Source: Roseococcus sp. SYP-B2431 | Lineage (GTDB): Bacteria > Pseudomonadota > Alphaproteobacteria > Acetobacterales > Acetobacteraceae | DNA: 64,000 bases | NCBI RefSeq assembly: GCF_004336745.1 | Contig: NZ_SJXD01000025.1 | Coordinates: forward strand, 558,001-622,000 | Reading direction: 5' to 3' | In this document: positions 49,572-58,464 of the stretch, piece by piece | Layout: the number at the start of each line of letters is the position of its first letter | Numbering within the stretch: position 1 is the first letter of the stretch | Program-made: the position numbers and the translations under genes | The notes under the pieces: generated by a model | Databases searched by the model: none | What the model saw: the letters and a program-made list of their open reading frames with translations, nothing else | Told to the model about the DNA's origin: nothing

Positions 49572-52500
49572 TCAAACCTTGCCGCCTCGCTCCTGACTGA
49601 GCCTTTCGGCGATGTCGACCCAGCGCGGGGAGGCCGCGAGCTGGTCGAGGCTGATCGACAGGCGGCGGCGCCAGTTCGGGTGCTCCTGGTCGGTCGCAGG
49701 CACATTGACGGGGTGGGCCTCGTCCGTGAGATCGTCGATCTGCACCATGGCGAGCATGGCCGGCGTCCTGGCCAGGAAGGCATGTACGGCCCTGGCGAGG
49801 CACGACGGGTCCGGCTCGCCGTCGTCGGCCGGCAGCGTGCCGGCCTCGCGCAGGGCGAGCAGCAGTTGCGAGCGGTCTCGTTGCCGATTCACGCGCTGTG
49901 CTTCGGACGCGGCTGCGTCGTGAAACAGGCCCAGCTCCTCCCGCAGTCGGATATCGCGGCCTTCCCACCAGCCGCGCAGCGTCGGCAGGTCGTGGCTCCC
50001 GACGACGGCAAGGGCCGGGGCCGGATAGTCCTCGGGAGGCAGGAAAGCGCCGCTTTCGCCATCCTGTTCAAAGAACAGGACACGGTATGACAGGATATTT
50101 GCGGCCGCCATGCGCTCGCGGAACCCTTCCGGTACGGTTCCCAGATCCTCGCCGACCACGAGGCACCGGTGGCGGTGGCTTTCCAAAGCCAGGATGCCGA
50201 TCATTTCTTCCATGGGGTACTGCAGATAGGCCCCGTCATCCGGCTTCTTGCCTTGGGGAATGAGATAAAGGTGCTGCAGGGCCATCACATGGTCGATCCG
50301 CAGCCCCCCGGCATGGCGCATGTTGGCGCGGAGGAGCTCGATGAAGCTGCGATAGGCTTCCGCGCGCAGGGCATGCGGATTGAAGGGGGGCAGGCCCCAA
50401 TCCTGCCCCGCGGTGTTGAAGATGTCCGGCGGCGCGCCGACCTGCGCGCCTGAGACCACCGCGATGGAATTGCTCCAGGTCTCCGCTCCGGCTCGATCGG
50501 CGCCCACCGCGAGATCGCGATAGAGGCCGACGGACATACCCAGCTCGACCGCGGTCGTGGCGGCGGTGGCCAGTTGGGTGTCGGCGATCCATTGCATCCA
50601 GGCCAGGAAGTCGACCCGGTCGCGATGGCGCTGCGCGAAATCCCGCACCTCGGGCGAGCCAGGGTCGCGGAAGCCTTCTGGCCAGTTGTGCCAGTCGGCA
50701 AGGCTGGGATCCTGCTGGGCGAAATGCTCACGCAGCGCGAGGAAGAGACAATGGCGCTCCAGCACCTCACCCTGCTCGCGGCAGAAGGCTCGGAAATCCA
50801 TCCATCTGGCCGAGGGGGCTGCGTCCCGGCAGGCGGCGAAGAGCGTCTCCAATGCGGAGAGCTTCAGCGCGGTGACCTCGCCATAGGCCACCAGGGGGCT
50901 GGAGCAACAGGCCTCGAGCCGCGCTTTGAAGTTCATGCTCGCGATGAGGGCCTGAGCTTCCGCGCAGTCCTGCAGTTCCGGGATGGCCTGGACGTCGATG
51001 TAGAGGATGTTCAGCAGCAGGCGGCTGGCCGGGGAGTAGGGGCTCGCATGCTCCGGGTCGTCGTGGAACATGGCGTGCAGCGGGTTCAGGCCGATGAGCG
51101 CCGCGCCCTGCTCGGCCGCAAGTTCGACGAGCCTGCGAAGGTCGCTGAAGTCCCCGATGCCCCAGTTGCCGGCCGAACGCAGGAGATAGAGCTGGGCCGC
51201 GACGCCCCAGAGGCGCTCGCCCCTCTCCGACGCCGCGGGCAGCCAGCACCGGCCCGGCGTGACGATCAGCAGGGTGCTCGCGCCTCCCGGCTCGAGATTC
51301 AGGCGATGATAGCCCCAGGGAAGGCCATCGGGCAGCGACAGCTTGCGCCGCTGCAGGTCAAGTCCTTCCACCCGAGCGCTCTCGAGCAGGTCGAGAGAGG
51401 CGAAATCTGTCCGCCCCTGTCGCTCCGCGCCATCTTCCAGGGTGAGGCGCCACTGAACGATCGTCGCTGTTGCGGGCAGGACCAGGGCCGCGCCGGACTC
51501 CTCGGGCCCGAGCACGACAACGGCCGGGAGGGTCTGCAGCCAAGCATCCAGGTCCAGGCGGTCCAGCTCTGCCCGGGCCGCCGCGTCGTCGGTGACGTCG
51601 AGCCCCATGGCGGTCAGCAGCCCAGTTTTGGCCTCGGCGGTCGGGCGGACCATCTCCCCATGGGCGTTACGGAATTCGGGCTCGATGCCCATGCGCAGGG
51701 CGAGCCTGTCGAGGCTCGACTCCTCTCCCGCCGTTTTGCCGGCCCCGGCCGTCTCGATAGTCCAGCGAACCGACCAAGGGCCGAGCACCTCACCGGAAGC
51801 CTGCGCCCCTTCCTCCCAGATCACCCGGCTGACGACCGCGGGGAAGCCGGCCACGGTCTGGCCGGAGAGGTTGGCGGCCAGCACCAGCGTCTCCCCGCCG
51901 GCTACCGCCCAACGCACCACCACCGCACCGTCAGCCACCGCCCTATGCGTGCCGCCGGCCCGGATGCGGGACAGGCGCGGTACGATCTCGGCACGGCGTG
52001 CCGCGATGGCGCGCCGATACCAGCCGAGCCAATCCGCATGGGCTCCGAACTCGCGATCCTCCCAAACCAGTTTCGCCGAGGTGAAGGTGGCCTCGGCCAT
52101 GGGATCGGGGATGCGCTCGCGCATCTCGGGGTCCTGGAATTCAGGGAAGCGGGCGAACTCCTCACGCCGGCCGTTCCGCACCGCATCGGCGAGCTCGGGG
52201 CCGAAATCGCAGAAGAAGGGGAAGGGCTGCGCGGCAGCCCATTCCTCCCCCATGAAGATCATGGGAATCTGCGGCAGCAGCAGATAGACGGCTGCCACGG
52301 CGCGGACCGCTTCCGGCGGCGCGAAGTTCGTCAGGCGGTCGCCGAAGGCGCGATTGCCGACCTGGTCGTGGTTCTGGATGAAGGCGACGAAGGCCGTTGG
52401 CGGCAGGCCGACGCTGGGCTCGCCCCGGGCATGACCGCGATAGGGCATGACCTCGCCCTGAAAGGCGAAGCCTTCCGCCAGCGCGCGGGCGAGCTTCCCG

Positions 52501-55112
52501 GTGTCACCAAGGTAGTCGGCGTAATAGCCCTTGCCCTCTCCGCTCGCCGCGGCGTGCAGCACGTGATGAACATCGTCGTTCCATTGCGCCGTGTATTCCG
52601 GGGCATCGCCGGCGCCGGACCGGGTCAGCCGGCTGGCCTGGTTTTCCTCATTTTCCAAGAGCAGGTGAATCTCACGGTCCGGTGCCGCGGCGCGGACGCG
52701 CTCAGCGAGCTCCGTCAGCAGATGTTTCGGGCTGTCGTCGAGAATCGCGTGCACCGCGTCCAGCCGAAGGCCATCGAGGTGGTATTCCTGCGTCCAGTAG
52801 AGCGCGTTCTGGATGAAGTATTCGCGCACCGGGCCCGAACCTGCTCCGTCGGTGTTGATGGCGGCACCCCAGGGCGTCTTGTGACGATCGGTGAAGGTCT
52901 GCGGCGCGACGGCGTGGATATAGGCACCTTCCGGCCCGAAATGGTTATAGACCACGTCCAGCAGGACCATCAGGCCGCGCGCATGGGCGGCGTCGACCAG
53001 CGCCTTCAGATCCTCAGGGCGGCCGTAGCTGGCATCGGGTGCGTAGGGCAGGACGCCGTCGTAGCCCCAGTTTCGCCGGCCCGGGAAATCGGCGATTGGC
53101 ATGATCTCGATCGCGGTGACGCCGAGCTCGACGAGATGATCCAGCTTCCCGATCGCCGCACGGAAGCTGCCCTCCGGCGTGAAGGCGCCGATGTGCAGCT
53201 CATAGATGACGGCCTCTTCCCAGGGACGGCCCTTCCAGCCGGCATCTCGCCAGGCATAGGAAGCGGGGTCGATGACCTCGCTAGGCCCGTGCACATCCTC
53301 CGGCTGGTAACGGGACGCCGGATCGGGGGCCTTCAGCCCATCCGGCAGCACGAAGCGATAGTGCGAGCCGGCGCGCGCCCGATCGGTGACGAGGGCGTGC
53401 CAACCGTCGCCGAGCGCCTCCATGGGCCGCGGAGGTGTGCCTTCGATCTCGATCTGCACGGCCGCATGCGACGGTGCCCAGAGCCGGAAGCGCACCTGGC
53501 CGTCCGGCTGCAACTCCGCGCCGAAGGGCATGGCATGCGCCCGCCGCGCCGGTCCGTTATTTTGCAGCAGCGCCAGCACGCCTCGCAGCGGAATGGCGAG
53601 CCAGTCGGGGCGGTTGGCAAGTTCATAGGCGACCTCGTAGAGCGCCTTTTCCAGCATGAAGAACCGCAGCAGCCGCTCGGCCTCGGAGCGCTCTCGCGGA
53701 AGGCTGGGGATATCGGTGGCGGCTGCCCAATAGGCCTGGGTGAAAGCTTGCGAGGCCAAGGCTTCCCAGTCCTTGATTCGGGGGGCGGCATCCGGCAGGG
53801 CGCGGGCCGCAGTGGCTGCGGCATAGGAGATCGAGCGCAGCAGGCCAGCGACGTCGCGCAGCACCGCCTGCTTGGCGCGGCGCTCCGCCAGCGGCCGCAG
53901 CGGCTCGCCCTCGAAGTCCACGATGACCGCATCGCCCGCCGTGACGAGAACCTGCCCGAGGTGATAGTCGCCGTGATGCCGCGTGCGGACGAAGCCGCGC
54001 GCCTCGCGGATGCCGTCATGCAGCGCGGCCCCGATCGCGGCCCGCTGCCCCAGCACCTCTGCCGCGAGGCTTCGCGCTTCGCCGCGCAGGCGGGGCAAGG
54101 CGCCCTCAAGGCCCGTCAGGGCGCGGCCGATCATTGCCTCCGCGGCGGTCGCCCAGGCGGCGATGTCCGCAGGCCCCACGGCTTCAGGGCCGAAGGCCTC
54201 GTCCGCGGTGGGCGTGCCGAAAGCCCGATGCATCTCCGCCGTGCGCGCACCGAGGCGATGAAGCCAGGTGGTCGCCTCCGCCTGCGCAGCGTCGTCGCCG
54301 GCCAGGCGGTCCAGGATCCAGGACCAGCCATCGCCTTCGTTGGGCACAAAGCGCTGCAGGAGGGCCAAGGTGCTGCCATCCAGCTCCAGCCAGCCGAGCA
54401 TGGCCGGCGTGGCAGAAAAGCCGGCTACGTCGGTCAGGAAGCGCCCGACCTCCAGTTCCGGATGGATGCCGTCCTCCAGCTTCCGGATCACCTTGAGAAT
54501 GAGGTCCTCGCCCAGCCTGATCGACGTGTTCGACTGCTCGGCACTGCCTCGACGGATGTTCCAGCGTCCTTGCATGTCAAGTGTCTGAAGTTGGGCTGTG
54601 ATGCCACAGCTGAGCGGGTCCGGTGCTGCCCCGCTCAACAGCATTTCGGCGAAGCCCCGGACGAAACGGTCGTCAGCGAAAGCTTCGACCAGCTGCATGC
54701 CGCCGCCATCTCTCGCCCGGCCAAGATCCAGTATGACATCGCCGTCCGGCGCGAGACCGGTTGGGAGCAGGGCCAGCGGGACGAAGAGCCGCATCTGCGG
54801 CTGTCCCGGGGGTGTTACCCGCCAGACGGCGATTGCGGCGGCGACATCCTCTGTCGTGAGGGGATGCAGGCGATCCAGGGCGACATCCGGGGGGCCGGCA
54901 TCCTTGGCGGGGTACCAGCGCTTCGACAGCAGGAATCCCGCCATGGCCGCCTGAGCCCCGTCGAGGACAGCGCGTGACCAAATTTGTTGGAGGGGATCGC
55001 CAGGTAAAAGGCCATCTCGGGCGTTATCGGACACGGCAGACTCTGCAATTCGGATGTGGAGCAGAGCAAACTGCCGTGGAAGGCGAGGGTTGCTGTAATA
55101 GAGATAGGTCAT
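49572..55112 (-). CDS. maltokinase-TreZ-MalQ three-domain fusion
   Basis: A single uninterrupted frame of 1,846 residues with three enzymes. (1) About 1-525: maltokinase-like aminoglycoside-phosphotransferase fold, catalytic Asp382 in HHGDYHLGQVLV and metal Asp399 in VDFEGEP. (2) About 528-1128: malto-oligosyltrehalose trehalohydrolase (TreZ, GH13), with RFRLWAPSHAAVQIEIEG, nucleophile Asp785 (DGLRLDAVHAI), acid Glu820 (LLLENEEN), Asp916 (FIQNHDQVGNRA). (3) About 1132-1846: 4-alpha-glucanotransferase (MalQ, GH77), nucleophile Asp1607 (GGLRIDHVMAL), Glu1655 (VVGEDLGTVP), Asp1708 (SHDLPTLRGWW). All catalytic residues are present. No treY, treS or glgE is in view. Start uncertain: a TTG at 55178 would add 22 residues; no good ribosome site for either. 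Confidence 0.88.
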   Translation of the reverse strand: MTYLYYSNPRLPRQFALLHIRIAESAVSDNARDGLLPGDPLQQIWSRAVLDGAQAAMAGFLLSKRWYPAKDAGPPDVALDRLHPLTTEDVAAAIAVWRVTPPGQPQMRLFVPLALLPTGLAPDGDVILDLGRARDGGGMQLVEAFADDRFVRGFAEMLLSGAAPDPLSCGITAQLQTLDMQGRWNIRRGSAEQSNTSIRLGEDLILKVIRKLEDGIHPELEVGRFLTDVAGFSATPAMLGWLELDGSTLALLQRFVPNEGDGWSWILDRLAGDDAAQAEATTWLHRLGARTAEMHRAFGTPTADEAFGPEAVGPADIAAWATAAEAMIGRALTGLEGALPRLRGEARSLAAEVLGQRAAIGAALHDGIREARGFVRTRHHGDYHLGQVLVTAGDAVIVDFEGEPLRPLAERRAKQAVLRDVAGLLRSISYAAATAARALPDAAPRIKDWEALASQAFTQAYWAAATDIPSLPRERSEAERLLRFFMLEKALYEVAYELANRPDWLAIPLRGVLALLQNNGPARRAHAMPFGAELQPDGQVRFRLWAPSHAAVQIEIEGTPPRPMEALGDGWHALVTDRARAGSHYRFVLPDGLKAPDPASRYQPEDVHGPSEVIDPASYAWRDAGWKGRPWEEAVIYELHIGAFTPEGSFRAAIGKLDHLVELGVTAIEIMPIADFPGRRNWGYDGVLPYAPDASYGRPEDLKALVDAAHARGLMVLLDVVYNHFGPEGAYIHAVAPQTFTDRHKTPWGAAINTDGAGSGPVREYFIQNALYWTQEYHLDGLRLDAVHAILDDSPKHLLTELAERVRAAAPDREIHLLLENEENQASRLTRSGAGDAPEYTAQWNDDVHHVLHAAASGEGKGYYADYLGDTGKLARALAEGFAFQGEVMPYRGHARGEPSVGLPPTAFVAFIQNHDQVGNRAFGDRLTNFAPPEAVRAVAAVYLLLPQIPMIFMGEEWAAAQPFPFFCDFGPELADAVRNGRREEFARFPEFQDPEMRERIPDPMAEATFTSAKLVWEDREFGAHADWLGWYRRAIAARRAEIVPRLSRIRAGGTHRAVADGAVVVRWAVAGGETLVLAANLSGQTVAGFPAVVSRVIWEEGAQASGEVLGPWSVRWTIETAGAGKTAGEESSLDRLALRMGIEPEFRNAHGEMVRPTAEAKTGLLTAMGLDVTDDAAARAELDRLDLDAWLQTLPAVVVLGPEESGAALVLPATATIVQWRLTLEDGAERQGRTDFASLDLLESARVEGLDLQRRKLSLPDGLPWGYHRLNLEPGGASTLLIVTPGRCWLPAASERGERLWGVAAQLYLLRSAGNWGIGDFSDLRRLVELAAEQGAALIGLNPLHAMFHDDPEHASPYSPASRLLLNILYIDVQAIPELQDCAEAQALIASMNFKARLEACCSSPLVAYGEVTALKLSALETLFAACRDAAPSARWMDFRAFCREQGEVLERHCLFLALREHFAQQDPSLADWHNWPEGFRDPGSPEVRDFAQRHRDRVDFLAWMQWIADTQLATAATTAVELGMSVGLYRDLAVGADRAGAETWSNSIAVVSGAQVGAPPDIFNTAGQDWGLPPFNPHALRAEAYRSFIELLRANMRHAGGLRIDHVMALQHLYLIPQGKKPDDGAYLQYPMEEMIGILALESHRHRCLVVGEDLGTVPEGFRERMAAANILSYRVLFFEQDGESGAFLPPEDYPAPALAVVGSHDLPTLRGWWEGRDIRLREELGLFHDAAASEAQRVNRQRDRSQLLLALREAGTLPADDGEPDPSCLARAVHAFLARTPAMLAMVQIDDLTDEAHPVNVPATDQEHPNWRRRLSISLDQLAASPRWVDIAERLSQERGGKV

Positions 55113-55550
55113 TTCGGATGTATCGCAAATGTTAGTACGAGAAATTACCTTCTGAACCAGGGAGGCATGCTCCTCCAATCTGCTTCATGCAAATATCGCT
55201 TTCGGCCACCGATATGAGCCTTGCCGGCCGGCCAGGGGCCAAGCAGACCACTTGGCTAAGTCGCTTGCCCGGGCGGGGACGATGCCGGGGTCCCGGCCGT
55301 CGCTCGCGAACGAAGGCAGGCTCCCTCCTTCAGATGTCGCAAGCGCCGCTCAATCGCCGGCCGCAAATCCAATTGGCGCATCAGATGTTGGCAAAGAATG
55401 CGGGCGACACAGCAACCGGCCCCGAGCCCCGCCGTTGGGGTGAAGACGCAATAGTGGGTGCATTTGCATCTGCCCGACGCTCTCCCGCGTTGAGCTTCTT
55501 TTTACCGGCCCCTGAGTCAGTGACTCCGGCCTGCACAGGCAAGAGGAAGC
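55113..55550. other. divergent intergenic region
   Basis: About 440 bases between the giant fusion gene and the polyketide synthase operon. The left part is AT-richer and contains GCAAATGTTA (55125-55134), a third copy of the decamer-like word seen at 45097 and 45120. An open frame crosses it on the plus strand but is not protein-like. No -35/-10 pair can be assigned confidently. Confidence 0.4.
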
Positions 55551-56609
55551 ATGGGCCTCCCGCACATCAACCGAATCGCCACGGCCGTGCCCCGACACGA
55601 GGTTCACGAGGCATTCCGGGCCTTTGCGGAACGTCAGCTGCAGGAGCCGCACTCGAGAGAAGCCTTCGCCCGGTTGGCGCAGCGCGCGCAGATCGCCTCG
55701 CGCCACTCCGTCCTGGAACCCTTGCCGGATGCGACGGGCAGCGTCTGCGGCTTCTACACCGTCGCCGCCTTCCCGAGCACCGGCGCGCGGATGGCGCGCT
55801 TCGAGGCGGAGGCCCCGCATCTGGCGGAGCAGGCCTGCATGGCCTTGGGAATGGAGACGGAAGGGTCAGCCGTCACTCACCTCATCGTCGCGACCTGCAC
55901 AGGCTTTGCGGCCCCCGGTCTCGACCATTGGCTGATGCGCCGCTTCAGCCTGTCGCCCAGCGTGGAGCGGAGCATTGTCGGCTTCATGGGGTGCCAGGCC
56001 GCGATCAACGCGCTCAAGCTCGCCTGGCACATCGCGCGCGGCGACCACAGGGCGCGGGTGCTCGTGGTGAATTTGGAGCTCTGCACGCTGCACCTCCAGC
56101 CGGCCCGCGAGGCGGAGCCCCTGCTTTGCTCGCTTCTCTTCGCCGACGGCTGCTCGGCGGCGCTCGTCAGCCAGGATGCCCGCGGCCTGCGGATGGACGG
56201 CTTCCACGCCACGGTGATGCCGGAGGCGGCGCATCAGATCACCTGGCGCATTGCGGACAGCGGCTTCGACATGCGCCTCTCCGGCCTCGTGCCGCTGACC
56301 CTGGCGCGCGCCCTTCCGGACCAGATCGACGCGATGCTCGGCGGCATGCCGCCGGCCGAGGTCTCGCATTGGGCCGTCCATCCTGGCGGCCGTTCCGTTC
56401 TCGACGCCGTCGCCCATGGCCTTGGCCTGCCGGCGGCCGCTCTGGACACGAGCCGGCAGGTGCTGCGCGAGTTCGGCAATATGTCCTCGGCGACCGTGAT
56501 GTTCGTGCTGGAGCGCATGATGCGGGACGCTCTTCCAGGCTCGCCGGGATGCGCGCTGGCCTTCGGGCCGGGCCTCTCGGCGGAGTCCATGCGCTTCACG
56601 GCTGCGTGA
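55551..56609 (+). CDS. type III polyketide synthase
   Basis: 352-residue chalcone/stilbene synthase-like ketosynthase. The catalytic triad is complete: Cys148 in VGFMGCQAAINALK, His277 in WAVHPGGRSVLD and Asn310 in REFGNMSSATVMFVL; the LIVATCTGFAAPGLD block is typical. Condenses malonyl units onto an acyl starter to give alkylpyrones, alkylresorcinols or phloroglucinols. First gene of a tight three-gene operon with a methyltransferase and flavoprotein, so the product is probably a methylated, hydroxylated phenolic lipid or quinone. Confidence 0.9.
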   Translation: MGLPHINRIATAVPRHEVHEAFRAFAERQLQEPHSREAFARLAQRAQIASRHSVLEPLPDATGSVCGFYTVAAFPSTGARMARFEAEAPHLAEQACMALGMETEGSAVTHLIVATCTGFAAPGLDHWLMRRFSLSPSVERSIVGFMGCQAAINALKLAWHIARGDHRARVLVVNLELCTLHLQPAREAEPLLCSLLFADGCSAALVSQDARGLRMDGFHATVMPEAAHQITWRIADSGFDMRLSGLVPLTLARALPDQIDAMLGGMPPAEVSHWAVHPGGRSVLDAVAHGLGLPAAALDTSRQVLREFGNMSSATVMFVLERMMRDALPGSPGCALAFGPGLSAESMRFTAA

Positions 56610-57280
56610 TGCTGCGCCAGCGCTCGCGCCAGCCGGAGTGGATGGACGATCCGGAGGCGGCGGGCTTCGACACCGCGCTGGCCGAGTTGGCCCTCATCAA
56701 CCGACTCAGCCTCGCCGCGCGGCCGGTGCTCGGCTTCCTCGACCGCGTGGCGGCGCGCCAGGGCGGCCGCCCGCTTTCGATCCTCGACGTGGGTGCAGGC
56801 GGGGGCGACCTGCTGGCCCGCATCGCGGTCTGGGCGCAGCAGCGGCGGATCGCGGTGGAACTGACCGGGCTGGATGTCAGCCCATGGGCAGCCCGGCATG
56901 CCATGGCGCGCGGCGTTCCCGCGAAGTGGATCACGGCCGATGCCTTCGCGGTGGAGGGCAGCTACGACGTCGTGCTGTGCAGCCTCTTCGCGCATCATCT
57001 CGACGACGCCGCCCTCGCGCGCTTCCTGGTCTGGCTGGAGGCGAGGTCGCGCGTCGGCTGGCTGATTTCGGACCTGCACCGGCATTGGCTCCCATGGGGC
57101 TTCATCTGGGGTGCTTTCCGCCTGCTGCGCCTACATCCGATGGTGGTGCATGACAGCACGGTCTCGATCGCCCGCGGCTTCACGCGGGCCGATTGGCGGC
57201 GTCTGCTGGCGGAGGCTCAGGTTGAGGCGCAGCTGCGATGGGCCTTCCCGTTCCGCTGGCAGGTGAGCGTCGTGCGGTGA
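56609..57280 (+). CDS. SAM-dependent methyltransferase
   Basis: 223-residue class I methyltransferase: motif I LSILDVGAGGGDLLARIA, motif II GLDVSPWAARHA and acidic motif DVVLCSLFAHHLDD. The ATG overlaps the stop of the polyketide synthase gene by one base (TGATG). In similar clusters such an enzyme methylates the polyketide phenol or a quinone. The C-terminal region (RRLLAEAQVEAQLRWAFPFRW) is typical of this cluster's subgroup. Confidence 0.87.
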   Translation: MLRQRSRQPEWMDDPEAAGFDTALAELALINRLSLAARPVLGFLDRVAARQGGRPLSILDVGAGGGDLLARIAVWAQQRRIAVELTGLDVSPWAARHAMARGVPAKWITADAFAVEGSYDVVLCSLFAHHLDDAALARFLVWLEARSRVGWLISDLHRHWLPWGFIWGAFRLLRLHPMVVHDSTVSIARGFTRADWRRLLAEAQVEAQLRWAFPFRWQVSVVR

Positions 57281-57291
57281 CAGAGGGGGCG

Positions 57292-58464
57292 ATGACGGAG
57301 ACGGCGGTAATCGGCGCGGGTCCGGCCGGCTGTGCCGCCGCCATCACCCTCGCCCGCGCAGGCCGGCAGGTCACCCTCATCGACCGCTGCGCCTCGGCGC
57401 CGGAGAGCGTCTGCGGCGAGTTCCTGAGCGAGGATGCCGTGTCGCTGCTGCGCGGGCTGGGACTGACTCCCCTGTCGCTCGGTGCGGTGCGGCTGCATGG
57501 CCTGCGCGTGGCCGCAGGTGCCCGCGTGGCCGCCGCCTCCCTGCCATTCGCGGCCTACGGCCTGCCTCGGCAGCGGCTGGATGCGGCGCTCCGCGATCTG
57601 GCCATCTCGTGCGGCGTCAAGCTTATCGCCGGCGTGACGGTGCAGGGCGCCGATCCCGCTCCGGAAGGATGGTCGCTCCGCGGCACTCCGGTGCGCGCCC
57701 GGCATGCCGTCCTGGCGACGGGCAAGCATGCCTTCCGCGGCCAGCCAAGAGCCTCCCGATCTCGAGCGGTCGGGCTGAAGCTGCATCTGGAAGAGCTCCA
57801 CCTCGCGCCCGAGATCGCGCTGCTGCGCTTCCAGGGCGGCTATGCCGGTCTGCAGCCCGGACCGGACGGGAGGGCCAACCTTTGCCTGGCGCTGACCGGA
57901 CCGGTGCCATCCGGCACCGAAGGCCTGCTGGAACGGGTCCGAGGTGGATCCGCCCTGGCCGGGCGATTGCTGGCGGAGGCCCGGCCTGCCTGGACCAGGC
58001 CCCTGGCCGTCGCGGGGCTTCCCTTCGGCTTCGTTCACTGCGGTACGGGTGATCTGTACCGCGTGGGAGATCAGCTCTCCGTCATCCCGAGCCTGGCTGG
58101 CGATGGGATCGCCATGGCGCTCGCTTCCGGCATCGCGGCGGCGGAATCCATTGTCCTGGGCCGGAATGCGGCGGAGTTCCATCGGGCATGGGGGCGGCGC
58201 ATCGCGCCGCAGATGCAGCTCGCCATGGCCGGCGCGTGGCTGTTCCGCTCGATGCCGGCTGTCTTCATGGCCGCCCTGGGCAGCGCTGCCTTTCGGGGAT
58301 TGATGCGGGCTACCCGGCTGAGTGGCCAATCGGCGGCAAGAGCCGACGCCGTCAGCCTGTCCAGGGCCGGCCTATCCGGCGCCTTGGGCGCCTCAGGATT
58401 CTACGGCCCGATCCGTGGCACTGCGCCGGATCCGCCCCGACCGCCGGGAAGAGCGCGCCCATGA
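57292..58464 (+). CDS. FAD-dependent oxidoreductase of the polyketide operon
   Basis: 390-residue flavoprotein of the geranylgeranyl-reductase/hydroxylase group: dinucleotide motif AVIGAGPAGCAAAITLARAG, FAD-binding ribityl region SLAGDGIAMALASGIAAAE, C-terminal helix cluster (LAMAGAWLFRSMPAVF) that may touch the membrane. Two starts are possible: GTG at 57277 in a GTGA overlap, or ATG at 57292 behind AGAGG; the latter is used. Probably hydroxylates or oxidises the methylated polyketide to a quinone. Confidence 0.85.
   Translation: MTETAVIGAGPAGCAAAITLARAGRQVTLIDRCASAPESVCGEFLSEDAVSLLRGLGLTPLSLGAVRLHGLRVAAGARVAAASLPFAAYGLPRQRLDAALRDLAISCGVKLIAGVTVQGADPAPEGWSLRGTPVRARHAVLATGKHAFRGQPRASRSRAVGLKLHLEELHLAPEIALLRFQGGYAGLQPGPDGRANLCLALTGPVPSGTEGLLERVRGGSALAGRLLAEARPAWTRPLAVAGLPFGFVHCGTGDLYRVGDQLSVIPSLAGDGIAMALASGIAAAESIVLGRNAAEFHRAWGRRIAPQMQLAMAGAWLFRSMPAVFMAALGSAAFRGLMRATRLSGQSAARADAVSLSRAGLSGALGASGFYGPIRGTAPDPPRPPGRARP

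Follow-up and report, generated by a model that had tools for sequence, protein, structure and literature searches.

The fusion gene and its domains

The window analysed here is a 64,000-nucleotide stretch of the 4.7-Mb draft genome of Roseococcus sp. SYP-B2431 (contig NZ_SJXD01000025.1, positions 558,001 to 622,000), and its subject is a minus-strand gene in which a maltokinase-like kinase, a malto-oligosyltrehalose trehalohydrolase (TreZ, EC 3.2.1.141) and a 4-alpha-glucanotransferase (MalQ, EC 2.4.1.25) are encoded, in that order, as one chain (Table 1). The frame runs uninterrupted for 1,868 codons plus the stop. Translation from TTG at 55178 would yield 1,868 amino acids, from ATG at 55112 1,846 and from GTG at 55034 1,820; the GTG appears the likeliest start because in the nearest relative, locus L014, it aligns with the sole ATG among codons 1-30 (loci and genomes are designated by L and G numbers). 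The original prediction, made from the letters of the window and naming no strand, gave 1,846 residues, which agrees with the ATG and not with the full frame; residue positions below follow the 1,868-residue numbering.

Table 1. Features of the fusion locus (positions in the window)
Feature	Coordinates	Strand	Basis
Maltokinase-TreZ-MalQ fusion gene	49572..55178	-	single open frame, profile searches, alignment of starts
Maltokinase-like kinase domain, residues 61-541	53556..54998	-	ATP, Mg and maltose residues of mycobacterial maltokinase kept
TreZ domain (GH13), residues 551-1145	51744..53528	-	profiles, alignment
MalQ domain (GH77) with MalQ_N beta-sandwich, residues 1151-1868 and stop	49572..51728	-	profiles, alignment
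Stretch from the likely fusion start to the divergent type III polyketide synthase gene (at 55551)	55035..55550	.	

The trehalohydrolase is recognised by TIGR02402 at residues 562-1109 (720.5 bits, cut-off 538.8), and the glucanotransferase by TIGR00217 at residues 1282-1850 (463.1 bits, cut-off 205.65) and by PF02446 (398.1 bits, cut-off 25), with MalQ_N at residues 1217-1308. Alignment places D807, E842 and D938 of TreZ and D1629, E1677 and D1730 of MalQ in the expected motifs, and we take these to be the catalytic residues, those of TreZ being the Asp/Glu/Asp of GH13. The aligned domain blocks are spaced by 10 and then by 6 residues, and the chain ends after MalQ with no TreY domain behind it; the NCBIfam model of a MalQ-TreY protein, PRK14507, gave 858.7 of 2148 bits, with its best stretch on MalQ (profile positions 4-722 of 1693). 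No TreS domain was detected in the fusion, TIGR02456 reaching 41.8 bits (cut-off 678.35) within the TreZ part. The predicted order of three enzymes is thus upheld by the profiles and the open frame, and the predicted intactness of their catalytic residues by the alignments, including that of the kinase described below. In the related fusion of Aerophototrophica (L020:2575-8319) MalQ carries an additional low-complexity stretch in its N-terminal region.

A frameshift or an assembly error joining separate genes had been named as what might undo the prediction, and the check revealed none: 13 other loci read the identical order in one open frame, for which reason the fusion is regarded as a natural gene and not as a product of chance or misassembly. 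Nei-Gojobori dN/dS values between the window gene and L014 were 0.24 for the kinase, 0.14 for TreZ and 0.19 for MalQ, and two Azospirillum pairs gave 0.10-0.24 by domain; since every domain in the three pairs falls in this range, all three domains are maintained by purifying selection.

The kinase domain

The N-terminal kinase aligns with mycobacterial maltokinases. The residues reported for the maltokinase (Mak) of M. vanbaalenii are Ser136, Lys149, Asp305, Gln310, Asp322, Lys413, Tyr416 and Tyr420 (PMC4306142; PMC11046441; here and below, statements on published work refer to the accessible parts of the texts), and mutation of Lys413, Tyr416 or Tyr420 nearly eliminated its activity (PMC4306142). 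In the window kinase S216, K229, D404, Q409 and D421 align with the first five of these and represent the P-loop serine, the ATP-binding lysine, the catalytic aspartate (HGD) and the Mg-binding glutamine and aspartate (DFE), while K511, Y514 and Y518 match Lys413, Tyr416 and Tyr420, that is, the Lys/Tyr/Tyr set of the maltose pocket. The first five are found in all of 32 rows of kinases linked to MalQ or TreZ, which represent 27 distinct genes, five rows being repeat fetches; altogether ten of the 11 sites checked are invariant in these rows and the eleventh, K511, is present in 31. The signature Q-x2-RE-x2-YA-x3-LP-x-W of actinobacterial glucosamine kinases (PMC6520443) occurs in none of the 83 kinase rows, and identity as a glucosamine kinase was rejected on this ground. 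An AlphaFold model of the kinase domain, built with a 13-row alignment, has a mean pLDDT of 85.6 and places N-terminal strands before the kinase core; its best match in the PDB is a maltokinase, 4u94.

Relatives of the fusion and phylogeny of the kinase

In a scan of named genomes the best 80 of 499 confirmed stretches were kept and read for domain order along with further regions; the domain sets exclude 25 loci repeating DNA already present under another identifier. Maltokinase, TreZ and MalQ share one open frame at no fewer than 14 loci, six of them in the family of the window (the window, L014, L015, L016, L017 and L137) and eight in an Azospirillum-type family (L020, L155, L156, L157, L158, L181, L182 and L185). 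The next gene is treY at ten of the 14, and treY was not seen in the available DNA of the window, L014, L181 and L185. The product of A. ramasamyi, WP_111068116.1, is of similar length and domain order (43% identical to the window protein in the kinase, 65% in TreZ and 55% in MalQ), and is encoded with treY behind it on a 919-kb plasmid under the sole name 'malto-oligosyltrehalose trehalohydrolase' (treZ); the copy of A. brasilense Sp7 lies on plasmid ABSP7_p1. In another genome with the Azospirillum genus code, G1190, the fusion is split within TreZ into frames of 690 and 1,870 codons (L177:7748-13365).

Partial and alternative arrangements were also read. In Geminicoccus flavidas the stop of the kinase and the start of TreZ-MalQ overlap in ATGA (L018:2041-2044), apparently a step before fusion. 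Locus L021 has TreZ-MalQ without a kinase, and no kinase was found in that genome; treZ, malQ and treY stand unfused in a row at L026, L027, L030, L031 and L053, and L023 and L024 carry MalQ-TreY fusions. The simplest history would be growth of the fusion from an operon of the treZ/malQ/treY type.

In a kinase tree of 65 rows rooted at its midpoint, a branch (support 97/91, 26 rows) sets the MalQ-linked kinases, along with the stand-alone L178, apart from every one of the 34 TreS-fused rows; another stand-alone kinase, L161, adjoins them. Eighteen of the 83 rows were omitted from this tree, namely seven repeat or truncated MalQ-linked fetches, L170 (G1223) and L172 (G1224) among them being from genomes otherwise absent from it, and 11 TreS-type rows that were duplicate, partial or near-alike; the MalQ tree omits seven of 53 rows, and four truncated MalQ rows and a broken kinase row, L183, were skipped. 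Kinase-MalQ without TreZ is represented by five rows at three places in the kinase tree (G286; G747, G1222 and G1221; G1186), and treY follows all five of the kinase-MalQ genes read. The reversed order, MalQ-kinase, was seen once, in G148, where MalQ groups with unfused MalQs (96/93 with L061) and the kinase with the MalQ-linked set, a pattern that points to more than one joining of kinase and MalQ. All six of these genomes (G286, G747, G1186, G1222, G1221 and G148) retain a separate TreZ elsewhere. Because the kinase clade occurs as kinase-MalQ without TreZ and once in reverse, MalQ and not TreZ is its recurring partner; the joining of the kinase to both TreZ and MalQ, as first described, is true of the window, but within the MalQ-linked set TreZ is dispensable.

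The census rejects the fusion as a one-genome oddity, carriers being spread over two families. The kinase type was found in two of 21 genomes of the window's genus and in ten of 397 genomes of its family, where it is told by a gap in score (at least 366 versus at most 275 bits); among these ten, Plastoroseomonas hellenica, G286, G148 and G046 differ from the plain triple fusion. Aerophototrophica, Indioceanicola and A. brasilense Sp7 belong to the family of G747, and there the kinase type was found in 48 of 82 genomes, G1147 and G1176 being of doubtful status in this count. For 40 of the 48 the frame is 1,783 codons or longer; the order of domains was read in eight triple-fusion loci of this family. 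Within the genus code of A. brasilense Sp7 the figures are 39 of 45 genomes, 36 with frames of at least 1,783 codons, and the maltokinase-TreZ-MalQ architecture appears to be usual in Azospirillum. Among 398 genomes sampled from the phylum (limit E 1e-80) the top match was the window itself with 746.4 bits and the next had 434.1; no further member of the type was apparent, and the seven matching regions read from this sample showed no kinase fusion with either MalQ or TreZ. A sample of 385 genomes from the class left just G000 and G747 within E 1e-85, a limit too strict for a census.

Pathway genes in the window genome and in other carriers

A different wiring of the glucan routes, in the absence of the usual partners of the kinase and of TreZ, had been originally predicted. 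Inside the window these partners are indeed missing, but the contig that carries the fusion also holds GlgE, a TreS-maltokinase and GlgB at a distance of about 66 kb, and another contig holds GlgX-TreZ-TreY, so that each of treY, treS, glgE and glgX, for which a genome check had been proposed, is present. A separate cluster elsewhere holds GlgP, GlgB, GlgA and GlgX-MalQ, with a putative GlgC-like frame between GlgB and GlgA. GlgE was assigned by its position and by 49-51% identity to proteins annotated as maltosyltransferase, because the NCBIfam scan gave a weak match only. The fusion as a replacement for missing pathways was rejected, the genome holding TreS-maltokinase, GlgE, GlgB, GlgX, TreZ, TreY and GlgX-MalQ; since the usual partners are present, it is an addition to the normal wiring and not a substitute for it, and on this point the prediction needs amending. 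The second TreZ of the genome, in the GlgX-TreZ-TreY cluster (L094:3286-9934), is 52% identical to that of the fusion, and the TreY of the genome shares no more than 38-40% identity with the products of the treY genes that adjoin the fusions of relatives; the genome may have lost its native treY and acquired another in its place.

Across the carriers, a second kinase match of the TreS-maltokinase type accompanies the MalQ-linked kinase in 10 of 10 genomes of the window's family and in 48 of 48 of the family of G747. All 11 carriers searched first possess GlgE, as do all 13 searched next, Geminicoccus included (24 of 24), and none of six kinase-free genomes of the family of G747 has it (all raw counts); GlgE also occurs in G1147 and in G1160, the latter with a TreS-type kinase only. 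The earlier notion that the TreYZ and GlgE routes are connected is supported. In G148 the TreS-maltokinase (L183:5439-8814, minus strand) is split over two frames, a real feature or a sequencing error.

Proposed function and alternative explanations

It is considered probable that the gene encodes a natural trifunctional alpha-glucan enzyme whose kinase turns maltose made by MalQ into maltose-1-phosphate for GlgE. TreY and TreZ would cut trehalose off glucan ends, leaving short malto-oligosaccharides; MalQ would disproportionate these stubs into longer chains, reusable by TreY, and maltose; the fused kinase would phosphorylate the maltose, irreversibly and at the cost of ATP, and GlgE would add the resulting maltose-1-phosphate back onto the glucan. 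Since the fused kinase belongs to a MalQ-linked lineage apart from the TreS-fused one of the same genome, a maltose-1-phosphate route that bypasses both trehalose and TreS may be envisaged. The MalQ of Pseudomonas aeruginosa PAO1 produces maltose from malto-oligosaccharides and, together with TreS/Pep2 and ATP, converts maltohexaose into maltose-1-phosphate (PMC8084333; PMC11046441), a path on which TreY, TreZ and TreS could be bypassed (PMC8084333); the MalQ-fused kinase is proposed to unite this pair of reactions in one chain. We infer that maltose is the substrate of the kinase, that MalQ supplies it and that tethering may bring some benefit; the structure of the TreS:maltokinase complex argues against direct channelling (PMC6509496), and shared location or balanced dosage may therefore be the whole of that benefit.

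Several observations weigh against this proposal. On the whole protein TIGR02457 (maltokinase, EC 2.7.1.175) reached 371.2 bits at residues 76-538, short of its cut-off of 375.05, the kinase scoring 374.8 bits in the genome search, or 376.3 with its neighbours in frame; the Mak_N_cap profile (PF18085) gave no match in the window kinase at E 1, being over its cut-off in one of six MalQ-linked kinases and in the TreS-maltokinase of the window genome; and glucosamine kinase follows closely behind maltokinase in the structure search, which thus does not decide between substrates. For every activity of the fusion the genome also holds a separate enzyme (the second TreZ, TreS-maltokinase and GlgX-MalQ), which makes each potentially redundant, and treY is not beside the fusion, none lying behind it within the window. 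In P. hellenica (L022) the kinase is fused to TreZ with MalQ as a separate next gene, the kinase-TreZ frame of G046 is interrupted by the contig end, and the metagenome bin G1144 has TreZ-MalQ and a partial GlgE match with no kinase found. The tree is rooted at its midpoint only, the co-occurrence counts carry no correction for shared ancestry, and the second kinases were mostly typed by score and frame length, the TreS domain having been read in a small number that includes the window genome and G016. L178 lacks the P-loop serine, the catalytic and Mg-binding aspartates and both maltose tyrosines, and the literature search yielded no assay of enzyme activity for any clade member. L178 itself (L178:8813-10933, minus strand, in G1147) is a stand-alone relative of 707 codons and looks like a degenerate or repurposed kinase.

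Other explanations have been weighed against the same data. MalQ is generally known to release glucose, and the kinase might salvage this by-product, or another sugar, as do the glucosamine-kinase paralogues of actinobacterial maltokinase. Maltokinase paralogues have changed substrate before (PMC6520443), and the TIGR02457 score just under the cut-off and the nearness of glucosamine kinase in the structure search would agree with such a role; it is nevertheless judged unlikely, given that the maltose-contacting lysine is kept in 31 of the 32 rows and both tyrosines in all, that the glucosamine-kinase signature is absent throughout, that in the two surveyed families the kinase is found only alongside a second, TreS-type kinase, and that GlgE accompanies it in every carrier tested. 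A comparably small chance is given to mere operon convenience, whereby fusion equalises the expression of neighbours without any special relation between kinase and MalQ: treZ, malQ and treY are adjacent in several relatives, the Geminicoccus overlap is one small step from fusion, and the evidence against channelling (PMC6509496) fits as well; against it, kinases of this clade are linked to MalQ in either order, and in the absence of TreZ, in separate lineages.

Still less probable is that the kinase caps the reducing ends of longer malto-oligosaccharides against TreY and so acts as a switch between trehalose and storage glucan, as its position adjoining TreZ and MalQ, with treY so often next door, might suggest; we know of no user of longer phosphorylated chains. 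Moreover, the known maltokinase accepted maltose alone among the acceptors tested (PMC4306142). A sequencing or assembly artefact, which nothing but the unusual size would suggest, is ruled out for practical purposes by the 13 other loci, Azospirillum plasmids deposited as complete among them, and by purifying selection in each domain.

The conversion of MalQ-made maltose for GlgE, the reading preferred here, admits a broader form to which the evidence lends no more than an even balance: that a second, old maltokinase lineage is dedicated to MalQ and tied to it in several arrangements, offering an entry to the GlgE pathway independent of trehalose, with one chain and TreY deciding between trehalose and maltose-1-phosphate. 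If true, such a lineage would give bacteria such as Azospirillum trehalose-independent access to that pathway.

Comparison with known systems

Fusions among these enzymes are already known, including TreS-Mak, MalQ-TreY, GlgX-MalQ and, in a Neisseria, GlgB-MalQ (PMC11046441). The closest parallel is TreS-Mak (TreS/Pep2) of the GlgE pathway, in which maltokinase is likewise fused to its maltose supplier and its product, maltose-1-phosphate, serves GlgE; in the present fusion, however, the partner is MalQ, with or without TreZ, the kinase is N-terminal and belongs to a separate clade, and both kinase types coexist in the same genomes. The operon glgA-treZ-malQ-treY-glgX of P. aeruginosa PAO1, with treS/pep2 elsewhere, shares the order treZ-malQ-treY, and its MalQ feeds maltokinase in vitro, but there the genes are unfused and the kinase is the TreS-fused one (PMC8084333). 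Other chains join MalQ to a glucan enzyme, as in the NCBIfam models PRK14507 (MalQ-TreY, seen at L023 and L024) and PRK14510 (GlgX-MalQ, present in the window genome), but none of these L023, L024 and window-genome chains includes a kinase. In PRK14705, a model of 1,224 positions named branching enzyme, a maltokinase-like region also precedes a glucan enzyme, and its positions 13-488 match the window kinase, more weakly (207.2 bits) and with branching enzyme as the partner.

The original prediction knew of no described enzyme with the order seen in the window. The order is not unique, as the Azospirillum genomes and the copy annotated treZ attest; yet the accessible parts of the open-access literature searched (PMC1769515 and PMC11046441 included) yielded no account of a protein with the order maltokinase-TreZ-MalQ or maltokinase-MalQ, nor of a MalQ-linked clade of maltokinases, subscription papers being outside this scope. 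A MalQ route to maltose-1-phosphate has so far been proposed from P. aeruginosa mutants and from mixing separate enzymes in vitro, and a MalQ-fused kinase, in both orders and under selection, suggests that this route is hard-wired in some bacteria. An automatic treZ label can conceal two further enzymes, kinase and glucanotransferase, a point of relevance to pathway prediction in Azospirillum, a genus of soil bacteria that promote plant growth.

Neighbouring genes

In the window the fusion is flanked by a DUF1264 gene and by the divergent type III polyketide synthase gene. The latter belongs to a plus-strand stretch (55551-58464) that also encodes an FAD oxidoreductase, with a frame between the two that looks methyltransferase-like by eye.

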